Below, in pieces: positions 5,600-15,093 of a stretch of DNA of 29,107 nt. The notes beneath the pieces are model-generated. The model was given only the letters and a program-made list of their open reading frames with translations. It was not told the DNA's origin and ran no database searches. The stretch comes from a virus: the IMG/VR virus record IMGVR_UViG_3300031707_001881, positions 1 through 29,107 of that record; one strand, given 5' to 3'. The first letter of the stretch is position 1. Each line of letters opens with the position of its first letter. The translations under genes and the position numbers were made by a program.

Positions 5600-5611
5600 A
5601 GGGGTGATACA

Positions 5612-6028
5612 ATGGGATTACCTTATGCTGAGGACGTACGGCATTATTGGCAAACGAGCGCATCCTCACCTGATGTTTGGATAGATAGAGCTAAAAAAAT
5701 AATCGGGGATTTGGATGGTGCTATATTGGCCGAGGGATTTGGTGAGGTGAGTGGACACGGTGCCTATATGCTGGCCTTCCGGATAAAGGATAGTAAATTC
5801 AAGGTGGTATGGCCTGTTTTGCCGTCTATTAGTGGTAAAACCCAAGCTGCAAAACGACAAGCTGCGACAATGCTATTTCACGATATTAAAGCTAAAGCCA
5901 TGACAGCAAGTGTCTTGGGTGCTGATGCTGCCTTTTTCTCTTACATGATGCTCCCCGACGGCCGAACGGCTAGTGAACTAGCAACGCCAGAGTTGTCAAA
6001 TGCTTTCCCATTACTTTTGAAGGAATAA
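5612..6028 (+). CDS. Conserved-looking phage protein, function unknown
   Basis: A 138-residue protein. Notable stretches are SGHGAYMLAFRIKDSKFKVV, then WPVLP, and AAKRQAATMLFHDIKAKAM with GADAAFFSYMMLPDGRTASE. The compact alpha/beta look resembles small phage proteins found next to the putative annealing protein, but I cannot name the family. A GGGGTGA ribosome site precedes the ATG, and the gene follows the annealing gene by 12 bases, so a role in the same recombination step is likely by context only. Confidence 0.6.
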   Translation: MGLPYAEDVRHYWQTSASSPDVWIDRAKKIIGDLDGAILAEGFGEVSGHGAYMLAFRIKDSKFKVVWPVLPSISGKTQAAKRQAATMLFHDIKAKAMTASVLGADAAFFSYMMLPDGRTASELATPELSNAFPLLLKE

Positions 6029-6029
6029 G

Positions 6030-6386
6030 ATGCCAAGACCGAGGTTAGAACATGAAAACGTTTTGCGAATCCGGCCTCAGGAGCTAAAGAAGCTAACCAT
6101 ATTCCAGCTAGGTATGCTGGTAAAGTTAGCTTCTATGGCTGCGGGATCGCCCAGGTCCGGGTATGTCTGTGGGAGCTCCGGCGCTCCGCTCACGCTTGAG
6201 CAAGTAGCCGAGGAACTGAAAACTACCTACAGCTTGGTGAGTAAAAACGTGGAACTGCTACAAAATGCCGGCTTCATCGTTTTATCGGATAGCGGTATCT
6301 CAATAATCAACTGGTCCCGGTGGCTGGATACGCGGACGGCCTACCAAAGAGAGCTAATGCGGAGACGAAGGAGGCAAACACAATGA
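6030..6386 (+). CDS. Winged-helix DNA-binding protein (replisome-organiser-like)
   Basis: A 118-residue protein. Residues about 55-100 (LTLEQVAEELKTTYSLVSKN, then VELLQNAGFIVL) form a helix-turn-helix followed by a wing, as in the N-terminal domain of phage replication initiators. The C terminus ends in a very basic tract (RRRRRQ). It lacks the C-terminal helicase-loader domain of full-length DnaD/O-type proteins. It begins one base after the preceding stop and lies just upstream of the ATPase gene, so it may recognise the repeat array at 7956-8109. That link is inference. Confidence 0.6.
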   Translation: MPRPRLEHENVLRIRPQELKKLTIFQLGMLVKLASMAAGSPRSGYVCGSSGAPLTLEQVAEELKTTYSLVSKNVELLQNAGFIVLSDSGISIINWSRWLDTRTAYQRELMRRRRRQTQ

Positions 6387-6718
6387 GCGATTATCAATGC
6401 CCTAAATGCAAGTCCGGCAACATCAGTAAAGAGGACACACGTATCCGTTGTTTCTCTTGTGGATTTTTTGAGAATTTAGAGGACTACCCGATAGCCAGAC
6501 CAGCCCCAGTGATTTATGCTCTGCCGGAGCAACTACAGAGTCTTGAGGATAGAGTGCAAAATGTTGAGGAGTTAGTAGCAACCCCAGGTAGCGTGCCATA
6601 TCAGTTCCGCCATCAGTTGCAACAAATCAAGGGGGAATTAGCATATCTTAGAACCAATGCCAAACCTATTAAGCCGCCAAAGAAACAAAAGGCTGGATTC
6701 AAAGAAATCGAGGTTTGA
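6383..6718 (+). CDS. Zinc-ribbon protein with coiled-coil segment
   Basis: A 111-residue protein. I chose the ATG at 6383 because GGAGG lies 8-9 bases upstream and it forms ATGA with the preceding stop; a longer in-frame start at 6320 would overlap the winged-helix gene by 67 bases. CPKCKSG (6-12) and CFSCG (24-28) form a zinc ribbon. Residues 55-95 (LQSLEDRVQNVEELV, then QLQQIKGELAYLR) are heptad-like. The C terminus is lysine-rich. Possibly a primase-like zinc-binding accessory protein, but no catalytic part is present. Confidence 0.65.
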   Translation: MSDYQCPKCKSGNISKEDTRIRCFSCGFFENLEDYPIARPAPVIYALPEQLQSLEDRVQNVEELVATPGSVPYQFRHQLQQIKGELAYLRTNAKPIKPPKKQKAGFKEIEV

Positions 6719-7966
6719 TTGTCAAAACCTCAAATCACCGAACTCGCAGACGGCTACGAGTATAACTGGACTGACGAGAAGCTCATCATTAAGGCTTCCC
6801 GGGTCCGTGTTCATACGTCTGACGGTAGAGTAACAGGTGAACTTCTTATTACAGGGCAGAATAATAAAGCTATCTACCCACAAACTTCATTCAATTTTAC
6901 CTCAGACCGCACCCGTGGTAGTTTAATTAAGACGCTCACAGAGAGAGGTGGACAGTGGAAGTGGGATGATATTATCAACCAACTTTGCCTTAGTGTAGTA
7001 GAGAGAGCGCGGCAGGGTGAGCCAGTTCAGGAGTTATGGACATGTGATGAAATTGAGGCTCCAGAGTTTCTTTTGGAACCTCTTATTTATAAGGGCTTGC
7101 CAACTGTGATATTCGGCGAGAAAGCAGTTTGCAAGTCTACAATCTCACTTTTAGTTTATTCCTGCCTAATCTTGCCTTGGACTGACAATCCTTTATCGTG
7201 GAAAGCACCAGTTCACCCTGTTAAAGTTTTACTCGCTGATTGGGAGGTCAATGCGGATGTGGCAAAGTATAATCTAAAACGAATACAACAAGGTATGGGT
7301 TTACCACACTTTCCTCTGATTTACCGGCGCTGTAAATTGCCTCTGGTAGACGACATCGAGCAGATAAAGAAGCATCTCGACGACACTGGTGCTGAGGTCC
7401 TTATTATTGACTCTCTAGGTTTTGCGGCTGCTGGCGACCTGAACAATGCAGACCAAGCGTTGAGATTTGCCAATGCCCTGCGGCAACTAAATTGCGCTGC
7501 CTTTATCATCGCTCAAACGAGTAAGGATAGGAAGTCCAAGGGCAAATCAGTATATGGGAGCACCTTCTTTGAGTATTTTAGCCGTAATATCTTCGAGCTA
7601 CGAAAGACTAGAGAGGATAACGAGGACTCATTTGACATCGCTATCTTCAATACGTACTGTAATCTTGGAAGGCGGGCGAAACCTATGGGTTACCATATCC
7701 AGTTTGACGACATCAAAAAAACTGTGCATATAGAGCAAGCCGAGATTACGGCGGCAGACTTGGTTGAACGCCTTGGTACATGGTCGAGGATATACGATAA
7801 ATTGAAAACTCAAACATGGAAGGCAAAGGAACTGAGCGATGAGTTAGGCATATCTCTTGACCTTGCATCCCGGACGTTAAAACGGTACCAACAAAAAGGC
7901 CAAGTGGCTAAGTTGCCGGATGGCTCCTGGGGATTGGTCGCCAGGCATGAGGAGGTGTCTAGTTAA
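6719..7966 (+). CDS. RecA/RepA-like AAA ATPase with C-terminal winged helix
   Basis: A 415-residue protein. The start is a TTG directly after the previous stop, with GAGG 6 bases upstream; no ATG lies near. Residues 133-141 (GEKAVCKST) are a Walker A loop in which the usual Gly before Lys is Cys. VLIID at 227-231 is Walker B, and FIIAQTSKD follows as a sensor-like strand. This is the plan of RepA-type hexameric helicases and related phage ATPases. The end (KAKELSDELGISLDLASRTL) is a winged helix for DNA binding. The TGTCTA array begins within its last codons, so it probably acts in replication initiation. Confidence 0.7.
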   Translation: MSKPQITELADGYEYNWTDEKLIIKASRVRVHTSDGRVTGELLITGQNNKAIYPQTSFNFTSDRTRGSLIKTLTERGGQWKWDDIINQLCLSVVERARQGEPVQELWTCDEIEAPEFLLEPLIYKGLPTVIFGEKAVCKSTISLLVYSCLILPWTDNPLSWKAPVHPVKVLLADWEVNADVAKYNLKRIQQGMGLPHFPLIYRRCKLPLVDDIEQIKKHLDDTGAEVLIIDSLGFAAAGDLNNADQALRFANALRQLNCAAFIIAQTSKDRKSKGKSVYGSTFFEYFSRNIFELRKTREDNEDSFDIAIFNTYCNLGRRAKPMGYHIQFDDIKKTVHIEQAEITAADLVERLGTWSRIYDKLKTQTWKAKELSDELGISLDLASRTLKRYQQKGQVAKLPDGSWGLVARHEEVSS

Positions 7967-8109
7967 GTGTCTACTAGACAGGGGTGTCTACTAAATGATT
8001 AAATGCTACGTTCAAAGCAATCGTGTACTAGACATGTCTACTAGACAGGTGTCTACCTACTAGACAACTAGGGAAAAACTATAGTTTTCCCTTGTCTAGT
8101 AAGTGTCTA
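7956..8109. repeat. Array of TGTCTA / TAGACA sites (candidate origin or operator region)
   Basis: Eleven exact hexamers lie in 154 bases. TGTCTA occurs at 7956, 7968, 7985, 8035, 8050, 8093 and 8104; TAGACA occurs at 7975, 8029, 8042 and 8061. Two perfect 13-base palindromes TGTCTACTAGACA lie at 7968-7980 and 8035-8047, and a wider pair is at 8050-8066. Nothing in 7967-8142 looks coding. The array sits between the ATPase gene and a small gene with a strong ribosome site. A protein dimer must be the reader; whether it starts replication or represses transcription cannot be decided from sequence. Confidence 0.75.
8071..8091. repeat. AT-rich inverted repeat inside the TGTCTA array
   Basis: GGGAAAA flanks a perfect ACTATAGT palindrome (8078-8085), followed by TTTCCC; the arms match with one extra A on the left. 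It sits between the dense half-site cluster and the last two half-sites. It could be a melting element of an origin or a short transcription hairpin, although there is no T tract suited to termination. Confidence 0.5.
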
Positions 8110-8124
8110 CTGGTGTAGTATAAA
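8092..8124 (+). promoter_or_regulatory. Possible promoter overlapping the last two TGTCTA sites
   Basis: TTGTCT at 8092-8097 is followed after 18 bases by TAGTAT (8116-8121), with an overlapping TATAAA at 8119-8124. Two TGTCTA half-sites (8093 and 8104) fall within it, so a protein binding them would block polymerase. Both boxes are poor matches to consensus. Confidence 0.3.
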
Positions 8125-8142
8125 ATAAAAGGAGGTTTAACA

Positions 8143-8352
8143 ATGGCACAGCAACCAATCGTAGTCATTAACTCAGTGGAGAACCTCAAGATGGGAACAT
8201 CGGTCGAAGAGGGGCAGATAAAGGTTAGGATAGCCTTTGACTGCAAGATGAAATCGGAGGAGATTGCTCAGGTAGCCGACATTACCAAGGCCGGGGCGGT
8301 TTCTATCTCGGTCACCACCCGGCAATTAACCTTCGGTGGGGAGGCTAAATAA
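8143..8352 (+). CDS. Small unknown protein behind the repeat array
   Basis: A 69-residue protein, begins MAQQPIVVINSVENLKMGTS. AAAGGAGG lies 8-9 bases before the ATG, one of the strongest ribosome sites in the window. It is predicted to be mainly beta strand with a central helix. It is the first gene after the TGTCTA array and so may be controlled by it. No family recognised. The stop overlaps the next ATG (AATAATGG). Confidence 0.6.
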   Translation: MAQQPIVVINSVENLKMGTSVEEGQIKVRIAFDCKMKSEEIAQVADITKAGAVSISVTTRQLTFGGEAK

Positions 8353-8747
8353 TGGCAAACGAACCAAAATTCCCGCTACATTTCAAATGCCCGAGCTGTA
8401 AGAGTGATAAAGGCACCTTGCAGTTGTGTTCTCAAAAGGAAGTGGCCGAAGGCCTCTTGCCTCAGGACGTGCCGGTGGCCACAGCGCATCATAACATACT
8501 CCTGGCTGATGAAGGGAAAATTCAATCTGGAGTTCTCGCTGGTAAAAAGGCCCGGATGCTCTTTTATTTCGCTGACATTTGCTCCAAATGCGGCAACCAG
8601 TATATTTACCTGGTGGAGATGAAGGACATTATAATGCCGGCTGGCGCTCTGCACGGTCAGGCCCCGCGTATAGTATTGCCAGGCATGGGCCCGCTTCCGC
8701 CGGACATTGGAAAGAGACACTCGAGAGGCGATGGCGGAAGTATTTAA
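8352..8747 (+). CDS. Zinc-ribbon protein, function unknown
   Basis: A 131-residue protein with CPSC (13-16) and CSKCG (77-81), a split zinc ribbon holding a beta-rich domain (AGKKARMLFYFADICSKCGN). The C terminus is rich in Pro and Gly. It starts at the last base of the previous stop and its last 17 bases overlap the VRR-NUC gene. Confidence 0.6.
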   Translation: MANEPKFPLHFKCPSCKSDKGTLQLCSQKEVAEGLLPQDVPVATAHHNILLADEGKIQSGVLAGKKARMLFYFADICSKCGNQYIYLVEMKDIIMPAGALHGQAPRIVLPGMGPLPPDIGKRHSRGDGGSI

Positions 8748-9033
8748 GCTCACCGAGAAGGACTTTCTGCGGCAGATTAAGGACCTTGCCAAGATTTGCC
8801 ATTGGCGGGTGTATCATCCTTTCTTGAGTAAATGGAGTGAGCGGGGATACCCTGATATAACCCTAGTACGTCCCCCACGCCTCATCTTTGCAGAGTTAAA
8901 GGCTGAAAAGGGTGTGCTGAGTGAAAGCCAATGTGAATGGGCGGAGTTGTTACAGGCCTGCCCTGGTGTTGAGTATTACTGCTGGAAGCCGTCTGATTTT
9001 GATGCTATAGTGGAGATATTGAAGCGATGCTAG
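8731..9033 (+). CDS. VRR-NUC domain nuclease
   Basis: A 100-residue protein from the ATG at 8731, chosen over an upstream in-frame TTG at 8707 because GAGAGG precedes it and the core domain needs no more sequence. RGYPDITLV (38-46), FAELKAEKG (53-61) and the following ESQCEW give the D, E-x-K and Q residues of the VRR-NUC branch of PD-(D/E)XK enzymes. Stand-alone VRR-NUC proteins in phages act on branched or flapped DNA such as Holliday junctions. The end overlaps the next gene by 7 bases (GCGATGCTAG). Confidence 0.85.
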   Translation: MAEVFKLTEKDFLRQIKDLAKICHWRVYHPFLSKWSERGYPDITLVRPPRLIFAELKAEKGVLSESQCEWAELLQACPGVEYYCWKPSDFDAIVEILKRC

Positions 9034-9359
9034 ACAAGAGACTACTTAAGAAGTTTACCATTGAAGATTGTAACCAGGTTAGAAGAGAACTTGGGGAATC
9101 CTTGCGGCTGACAAAGGAACGGTTAAGACGGTTAAAAAGGAAAGAGAAGGAGAATCCCTCCTGGGCGGCCTATGATAAATATGCTGACGCTTTTGTAGGG
9201 ATAGATATTCGGATTGAAGAACAGCAGGCCGTCAGGGAAGAAATCGAACAGGATATTATATTAGTAGATGGGCGAGCCTGCGAAATAATTGCAGAATCAA
9301 AGCGAGCGGTAGAAAAAGAAAGAAAAGATGGCGAAATTCAGTTGGAGTTGAAGATTTGA
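9019..9359 (+). repeat. Direct repeat, copy A (341 bp, contains a gene)
   Basis: Starts at TTGAAGCGATGCTAGACAAG and runs through the small gene; the same sequence, diverged, occurs at 10729-11069. The first 18 bases are the end of the VRR-NUC gene, and they recur in copy B where there is no VRR-NUC gene. This suggests copy B was made from copy A. Confidence 0.85.
9027..9359 (+). CDS. Helical phage protein, first of two paralogues
   Basis: A 110-residue protein, highly charged and almost wholly helical (RLTKERLRRLKRKEKENPSW, then the strongly conserved AAYDKYADAFVGIDIRIEEQ). By hand, about 87 of 110 residues match the copy at 10737, with the differences concentrated in the last 30 residues. 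The ATG overlaps the VRR-NUC stop by 7 bases. Coiled-coil oligomerisation is likely; function unknown. Confidence 0.7.
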   Translation: MLDKRLLKKFTIEDCNQVRRELGESLRLTKERLRRLKRKEKENPSWAAYDKYADAFVGIDIRIEEQQAVREEIEQDIILVDGRACEIIAESKRAVEKERKDGEIQLELKI

Positions 9360-9393: not shown

Positions 9394-9885
9394 ATGAATA
9401 ACGAATTGCCGCCGCATGACATCGAGGCTGAACAAGCAGTTCTCGGCTCCATCTTAATTGATAATGTGGATATGGGGAGAATTTCCGCATTTCTGAGGCC
9501 GGAAGATTTCTTTAATCCCGAGAACCAGTTAATCTATGAGGCCTGTATCGCCATTAACCTGCATGCTGTGGGGATAGACCAGATAACCCTGGCACGAGAA
9601 CTCTCCGGAAGGGGGAGGTTGGAGGAAGTTGGTGGGACTGCTTACCTAAGTCATTTGATTTCAATGGTTCCTACTTCACTTCACATTGTATATTATGCGC
9701 AGATAGTTTCTAAGTTGGCTATGTCCCGACGCCTTATTAGCGCTGGCAATCAAATCATGGCGCTCGGTTATGACCCCGACATTGAAGTTGATGCGGCCCT
9801 AGAAAGGGCAGGGGATATTCTGGGCAAAGTTAGACAGTTATACAATTCCAGGTACGAAACACAAGGCGGCGGGGTGGAGATGTGA
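9394..9885 (+). CDS. Isolated DnaB helicase N-terminal domain
   Basis: A 163-residue protein. It opens with LPPHDIEAEQAVLGSILIDN, the start of bacterial DnaB, and continues with FLRPEDFFNPENQLIYEA, GGTAYLSHLISMVPTS and YYAQIVSKLAMSRRLISAGN, all parts of the DnaB N-terminal and linker region. It stops where the RecA-like ATPase would begin, with no trace of it downstream. The N domain forms the collar and binds DnaG primase and loaders, so this protein could compete with or recruit host DnaB, or be the N half for the separate ATPase at 6719. An AGGGGG ribosome site precedes the ATG. It lies in a cassette between two direct repeats. Confidence 0.85.
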   Translation: MNNELPPHDIEAEQAVLGSILIDNVDMGRISAFLRPEDFFNPENQLIYEACIAINLHAVGIDQITLARELSGRGRLEEVGGTAYLSHLISMVPTSLHIVYYAQIVSKLAMSRRLISAGNQIMALGYDPDIEVDAALERAGDILGKVRQLYNSRYETQGGGVEM

Positions 9886-10728: not shown

Positions 10729-11069
10729 TTGAAGCGATGCTAGACAAGAGATTACTTAAGAAATTTACCATTGAAGATTGTAACCAAGTTAGAAGAGAAC
10801 TTGATGAGTCTTTGAAATTGACCAAAAAGCGGCTAAGGCGATTGGAAAGGAAACAGTCTGAGAATCCTGCCTGGGCAGCCTATGACAAATATGCCGATGC
10901 CTTTGTAGGTATAGACATTCGGATTGAAGAGCAACTAGCCGTCAGGGAAGAGATTGAGCAGGATATTATATTAGTAGACGAGCGAGCCGTGGAACTTACC
11001 GAACGAGTGAAGCAACTTGCGGAAAAAGAAAGACGGGAAGGCGAAGTCCAGTTAGAGCTAGGACTTTAA
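10729..11069 (+). repeat. Direct repeat, copy B (341 bp, contains a gene)
   Basis: Second copy of 9019-9359, the same length by hand. It begins with TTGAAGCGATGCTAG, the end of a VRR-NUC gene that is absent here, after 32 bases of non-coding DNA following the PAPS-reductase-like gene. Confidence 0.85.
10737..11069 (+). CDS. Helical phage protein, second of two paralogues
   Basis: A 110-residue paralogue of the gene at 9027. Residues 1-22 are identical and residues 46-81 differ at one position, while the C-terminal third has drifted (ELTERVKQLAEKERREGEVQ). Conservation with local divergence suggests that both copies are still expressed and may have partly separated roles. There is no good ribosome site beyond the copied GAAGCG, because the VRR-NUC frame that would couple it is missing. 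Confidence 0.7.
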   Translation: MLDKRLLKKFTIEDCNQVRRELDESLKLTKKRLRRLERKQSENPAWAAYDKYADAFVGIDIRIEEQLAVREEIEQDIILVDERAVELTERVKQLAEKERREGEVQLELGL

Positions 11070-14724: not shown

Positions 14725-15093
14725 ATGAATATCAATGAACGGCGTGCACAATTCGTTTATGATGCTGCAAGACTCGCAGCAGAAGCAGCACAAGCTCCAA
14801 TTATTCCTGTGCTCTGGAATGAACGAGAGCAAGATTTCAAAGACCAGTTTATCAAGGTAATTGAACGGCAATGTGGAGAGCAACGTTCATCTTCTCCCGA
14901 AGAGTTGCATGGTAGTTGGATGCAATCGTACTTGGCAATGGGGTGGGTTTACGGCGAAATATATGACCGAGAAAAACGTATCCATCCTGACCTCGTGCCA
15001 TATTGCCAGTTGGACAAATTAGAACGAGACAAGGATGCCGTGTTTGCGGCATTATGTGAGATTGCGAGGCAATTTATAACAGAGGGAGGTTGA
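14725..15093 (+). CDS. RyR-domain protein
   Basis: A 122-residue protein. SSPEELHGSWMQSYLAMGWV followed by YGEIYDREKRIHPDLVPYCQ and LERDKDAVF matches the RyR repeat, with its conserved W, GW, YG, HP and LVPY positions. In bacteria and phages this small domain occurs alone or fused to other domains and is thought to bind a ligand or protein. Its phage role is not known. The ribosome site (GGAGGGA) lies 9-10 bases before the ATG. Confidence 0.75.
   Translation: MNINERRAQFVYDAARLAAEAAQAPIIPVLWNEREQDFKDQFIKVIERQCGEQRSSSPEELHGSWMQSYLAMGWVYGEIYDREKRIHPDLVPYCQLDKLERDKDAVFAALCEIARQFITEGG

Follow-up and report, generated by a model that had tools for sequence, protein, structure and literature searches.

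The C-terminal domain of SCCmec Cch2 binds direct repeats located immediately 3′ of its own gene; SaPI Rep is said to read iterons in the same manner, immediately 3′ of its helicase gene (PMC7581432). In the PLE satellites of Vibrio cholerae, the DNA-binding domain of RepA co-varies with ori, and replication proceeds from matched pairs only (PMC8263062). Initiator helicases with iterons just 3′ of their own gene are known already; what is notable in the locus described here is a motif found across initiator families. We analyzed an IMG/VR virus record of 29,107 bases (hereafter, the window), in which the gap after an ATPase gene is filled by a TGTCTA array. The locus offers a testable origin for a phage without close relatives, and comprises the following features:

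6719–7966, + strand: RepA-like (AAA_25/RecA-fold) ATPase gene, 415 aa, TTG start; proposed initiator
7956–8109, no strand: TGTCTA/TAGACA array, 11 exact sites in mixed orientation
7968–7980, no strand: TGTCTACTAGACA, an inverted site pair around one base
8035–8047, no strand: second, identical copy of TGTCTACTAGACA
about 8059–8100, no strand: hairpin ACTAGACAA(CTA)GGGAAAA / TTTTCCCTTGTCTAGT, with sites in both arms
8100–8142, no strand: AT-rich stretch (70–73% A+T) beside the last sites; candidate unwinding element

The 11 exact TGTCTA/TAGACA hexamers reported in a preliminary description were all recovered on recounting at 7956–8109, seven on the + strand and four on the − strand, with start-to-start spacings of 12, 7, 10, 44, 6, 7, 8, 11, 32 and 11. 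Only 0.061 such hexamers are expected in these 154 bases, and the Poisson probability of at least 11 is approximately 1e-21; no other hexamer exceeds four copies per 160 bases anywhere in the window, the runners-up being overlapping parts of the TGTCTA word itself. The copy number is thus beyond chance, as had been claimed. Across the whole window, 24 exact copies compare with an expectation of 11.5, and the 13 that fall outside the array therefore represent background. The first copy (7956–7961) lies among the final codons of the ATPase ORF (stop codon 7964–7966); the array therefore starts just before that gene ends and, contrary to its earlier description, is not wholly non-coding, although the rest of it lies in the gap. 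The two 13-base elements formerly called perfect palindromes are indeed identical, but the term is slightly loose, since TGTCTACTAGACA consists of inverted TGTCTA repeats around one unpaired base. Positions 8029–8034 and the second copy together form the junction TAGACATGTCTA.

The product of the ATPase gene matches AAA_25 (PF13481) with an E-value of 4.6e-15, which upholds its earlier assignment as a RecA/RepA-like ATPase, whereas the accompanying C-terminal helix-turn-helix (HTH) is weakly detected: residues 367–401 match HTH_23 (E 0.0017) and MarR_2 (E 0.002), both below the cut-off. The winged helix is predicted at about residues 355–407, and the structure model places H-H-H-E-E at the C-terminus with low confidence (pLDDT 44), too poor for a structure search. 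The D5, DUF927 and VapE profiles did not match the ATPase, whose fold is AAA_25 (RecA/KaiC-like). As with Cch2 and SaPI Rep, repeats directly follow the initiator gene, here a proposed one with 11 copies, and that gene encodes a helicase-type ATPase, helicase activity being predicted for the window protein. The differences lie in the ATPase itself, which is D5/MCM-like AAA+ in Cch2 and SaPI Rep but AAA_25 in the window, and in the repeat, the Cch2 iteron being AAGTG rather than TGTCTA. Because a D5/MCM-like AAA+ fold was not found, the window origin would work like those of Cch2 and SaPI Rep but outside that helicase family. Among Cch2 kin, a Cch1-like protein of Scatolibacter (L274; DUF927 plus Cch HTH, NCBIfam SCCmet_Cch1 6e-24) has TGTCTAC sites 3′ of its gene, a word shared with the window. 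The PLE RepA_N/ori system is similar in that the DNA-binding domain and the origin iterons are swapped together as a unit whose function has been demonstrated. It is different in that this domain sits at the N-terminus, repA and ori lack the same kind of adjacency, and the iterons are long and semi-palindromic (PMC8263062).

Taken with these comparisons, the sequence suggests that the array is probably an origin of the iteron type, with the C-terminal winged helix of the adjoining upstream ATPase as its reader. Specifically, we infer that the ATPase reads the TGTCTA array and would bind its sites through the C-terminal winged helix; it may then assemble into a ring on the array and open the neighboring AT-rich DNA or the hairpin, so that replication would start at the array. 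Folding of 7950–8142 as single-stranded DNA gave a z-score of −4.05, with none of 200 shuffles as low, and the fold mainly corresponds to the hairpin at about 8059–8100, whose arms contain TAGACA/TGTCTA copies. The inverted repeat at 8071–8091 had been proposed as an AT-rich melting site. Its arms, however, are GGGAAAA/TTTTCCC, extended by flanking TAGACA/TGTCTA into the longer hairpin, and the highest A+T content (70–73%) is found elsewhere, at 7990–8020 and 8100–8150; the repeat is better read as a hairpin than as a simple AT-rich melting site. The candidate unwinding element at 8100–8142 extends to the AGGAGG ribosome site and the start codon (ATG) at 8143, and several VapE loci likewise have AT-rich DNA beyond their last block of repeats. 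GC skew, suggested earlier as a check, showed no sign change at 8 kb along the window and is uninformative here, because the record is 29 kb long with nearly all genes on one strand. An Rfam search returned a chance-level match alone.

The preliminary description had left the reader of an iteron origin open between the ATPase and the product of a gene at 6030, and had offered an operator cluster as the alternative; both points turn on the genes around the array:

6030–6386, + strand: protein of 118 aa, weakly similar to Phage_rep_org_N (PF09681, E 1.2e-4, slightly under the cut-off)
8143–8352, + strand: small gene, 69 aa, first after the array, without recognized function or relatives found
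8707–9033, + strand: VRR-NUC/Holliday-junction-resolvase-like gene (phrog_93, E 4.9e-9; phrog_5702, E 5.8e-6; PF08774, E 0.0011)
9394–9885: DnaB N-terminal domain alone (PF00772), 163 aa, without helicase domain
from 9923: PAPS-reductase-like gene
13392 and 16033: terminase genes, 5–8 kb from the array

The origin reading is supported by position and comparison, and of the two candidate readers the C-terminal winged helix of the ATPase is favored. For Phage_rep_org_N initiators of the TP901-1 type, direct repeats lie inside the initiator gene or beside it. The 6030 product could accordingly be a winged-HTH replisome organizer of this kind that reads the array, leaving the ATPase as loader or helicase, and it does resemble both Phage_rep_org_N and the PHROG 4880 replisome organizer (phrog_4880, E 6e-5) and is encoded 1.6 kb upstream in the same gene run. 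We nevertheless regard this arrangement as unlikely: apart from the TGTCTA array, no repeat array was found in or beside the 6030 gene across 5600–7966, two genes separate the 6030 gene from the array while the ATPase gene touches it, and in the compared systems the array lies 3′ of the ATPase or helicase gene.

An operator cluster, in which a repressor bound to the TGTCTA sites would control the genes from 8143 on, fared somewhat worse and appears to us quite improbable. The gene just 3′ of the array does have a strong ribosome site, the inverted half-sites would suit a dimeric repressor, and an A+T-rich TATAAAAT-like sequence occurs at about 8118–8125. Scans of the array for sigma-70-type promoters, the promoter type covered, and for intrinsic terminators nevertheless found neither, and a phage-repressor-type gene was not recognized among the window proteins scanned, in a record that may be incomplete. 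In addition, 11 irregularly spaced sites exceed the usual number, and the window holds no second cluster.

Returning to the ATPase as the probable reader, we searched for its direct relatives and found none in viral contigs (pattern plus tblastn), in phage and plasmid records (tblastn, strict limits) or in 399 Bacillota genomes and seven others; the 69-aa gene and a 451-aa gene likewise had no relatives in viral contigs. Terminase relatives comprised one contig at 100% identity (L446, from another metagenome) and two short fragments; L446 is without the array because its overlap with the window starts at approximately 10.2 kb. As none of the collections searched yielded a close relative of the ATPase, support for the origin reading is comparative. 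At a loose limit (E up to 1), two weak phage matches appeared, the RepA of Streptococcus phage Javan273 and a Skermania phage primase, with pairwise E-values of 3e-7 (BLAST) and 2e-8, respectively. The Javan273 module shares with the window an AAA_25 ATPase with a C-terminal HTH, weakly detected in the window protein, a dense short-repeat array directly after the stop codon, and the layout of AAA_25 RepA gene, array in the 3′ gap, small gene and resolvase; in the window, too, the resolvase gene is the second after the array. It differs in the length of RepA (758 aa with a long N-terminal part, against 415 aa) and in its array word, GGGACA. Core identity between the window ATPase and streptococcal RepA is about 23–24%, and hhalign aligned 171 columns of the ATPase part only (prob 55, E 1.2e-4). 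By family and layout, the streptococcal RepA module thus appears to be the nearest kin of the window ATPase, at weak homology. Experiments on the origin of Javan273-type RepA were not found in the literature searched.

We assembled 32 distinct RepA relatives, fetched by protein similarity to Javan273 RepA and not by motif. All 17 proteins with an RRW recognition helix are followed 3′ by a GGACA-rich array (5–18 copies in 450 bases), whereas none of the 15 without that helix is, their GGACA count being 0–2. The array word (GGACA or others) therefore agrees with the C-terminal HTH type (RRW or others) in 32/32 relatives, with no mismatched pair. On a tree of the RepA core that excluded the C-terminus, HTH type switches at least six times (6–7) and the array follows each time; independent pairs were concordant in 6/6 cases (p 0.03). 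The partial correlation between HTH and array given the core was 0.79, against 0.01 between core and array given the HTH, and none of 1000 permutations reached this association. The association does not extend past the C-terminal residues on the protein side and a few hundred downstream bases on the DNA side, suggesting that HTH and array move as a cassette; beyond about 450 bases downstream, the sequence tracks the core again. Since HTH and array are adjacent, their co-variation could partly reflect physical linkage. The agreement would allow origin specificity to be predicted from the protein sequence. We also observed, at the 3′ ends of the RepA genes (L409–L445, L408), that the streptococcal ATPase core stays nearly unchanged while HTH type and array word swap together.

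The word itself was followed in a scan of viral contigs for three TGTCTAC copies within short gaps, which yielded at least 120 stretches. Among the matches listed, mixed-orientation arrays of at least four sites made up 25/120, compared with 0/120 for the reversed control word CATCTGT; the remaining TGTCTAC stretches listed were mostly one-orientation tandem repeats, many with multiple-of-three spacings. The arrays adjoined VapE-like primase-helicase genes (L022, L051, L053, L058, L063, L091, L095, L103), D5/DUF5906-type genes (L005, L085, L059, L007), a DUF3987 gene (L108) and a PriCT_2 gene (L078), and in L030 and L047 the array lay 5′ of a D5_N gene. A genome scan found TGTCTAC with VapE in C. 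difficile (L302), Parablautia (L295) and a gammaproteobacterium (L278), and with DUF3987 in Cyanobacteria (L268, L348, L356), so that mixed-orientation arrays 3′ of initiators occur in Firmicutes, Cyanobacteria and one gammaproteobacterium. Like the window, many VapE-like (PF05272) replicons of Clostridia phages and prophages carry mixed-orientation TGTCTAC arrays, which begin no more than a few dozen bases from the stop codon and have AT-rich DNA beyond. They differ in their unrelated ATPase family, and TGTCTAC is rare among unselected Clostridia VapE genes. Literature searches on the TGTCTAC motif and on iteron-bearing VapE origins returned nothing relevant.

Mixed-orientation TGTCTAC arrays also occur beside structural genes in actinophage-like contigs (L015, L092, L093, L104, L113; G010, G012), in some records two to each. 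Because these arrays adjoin structural genes, TGTCTAC is not always the mark of a helicase gene, and a protein other than a helicase may read it there; the helicase reading leaves them unexplained. Such paired arrays might suggest another DNA-handling site in the window, for partition (centromere-like) or packaging, read by an unrecognized protein, but this is very improbable given a single array abutting the ATPase gene, terminase genes 5–8 kb away and no ParA/ParB-like gene recognized among the window proteins scanned. Matches in Chloroflexota were set aside as a different thing, dispersed 8-base GTAnACAn repeats that hold TGTCTA by chance of sequence. In Anaerolineae (L251, L259, L327, L347 and others), each genome has them at several loci, frequently arranged in two blocks that face each other, and they resemble a separate repeat family.

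Since TGTCTAC itself had been searched for, its recurrence across initiator families is partly selected. We therefore sampled initiators independently of the motif. In VapE genes from 148 Clostridia genomes, chosen without regard to motif and centered on C. difficile, TGTCTAC was found in C. difficile alone, the center genome, and its universality for VapE was rejected. Most other sampled VapE genes had a different clustered word at the same place (TGTTCC, TGTTAC, TGTTGC, TGTAAC, TGTAAAC or TGTCCT), and similar words often begin with TG and end in AC or CC, with two to three variable bases between. With a clustered word defined as one hexamer with five or more copies in the 320 bases that follow the gene, such words followed 8/22 DUF3987, 4/14 DUF927 and 9/24 D5_N genes, against a background of 60/780 random windows; some of these five-copy words are weak. 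A clustered short word thus follows the majority of VapE genes and roughly one in three of the other initiator genes. TGTCTAC appeared again behind cyanobacterial DUF3987 genes (L449–L451), two of them from genomes other than the center one. This sampling makes TGTCTAC one of many similar words at this position. A correlation of the word specific to the C-terminus was not seen in the VapE set (partial 0.06). As a separate observation, VapE L382 has a C-terminus nearly identical to those of L383 and L398, the main difference lying in the wing (GIVSGY vs GAAAGY), and its array word is TGTTGCC, that of L383 and L398 being TGTTCCG.

What is unusual in these results, and worth pursuing, is that one word recurs behind unrelated initiators, which raises the question of whether a DNA-reading module is exchanged between unrelated enzymes. 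It is conceivable, if doubtful, that TGTCTAC is an origin word shared across phyla by non-homologous initiator ATPases (VapE, D5-like, DUF3987, Cch-like and AAA_25) through an interchangeable C-terminal winged-helix reader or one partner protein, with specificity traveling as a reader-plus-array cassette. A plain rule also emerges: a clustered word of 6–7 bases just behind an initiator ATPase gene points to candidate origins in many phage and element families.

Elsewhere in the window, two very similar 110-aa genes (MLDKRLLKKFTIEDCNQVRREL...) at 9027–9359 and 10737–11069 flank the DnaB N-terminal domain and PAPS-reductase genes, and the pair is a recent duplication. A small RyR-domain protein (PF02026, E 9e-9) is encoded at 14725–15093.
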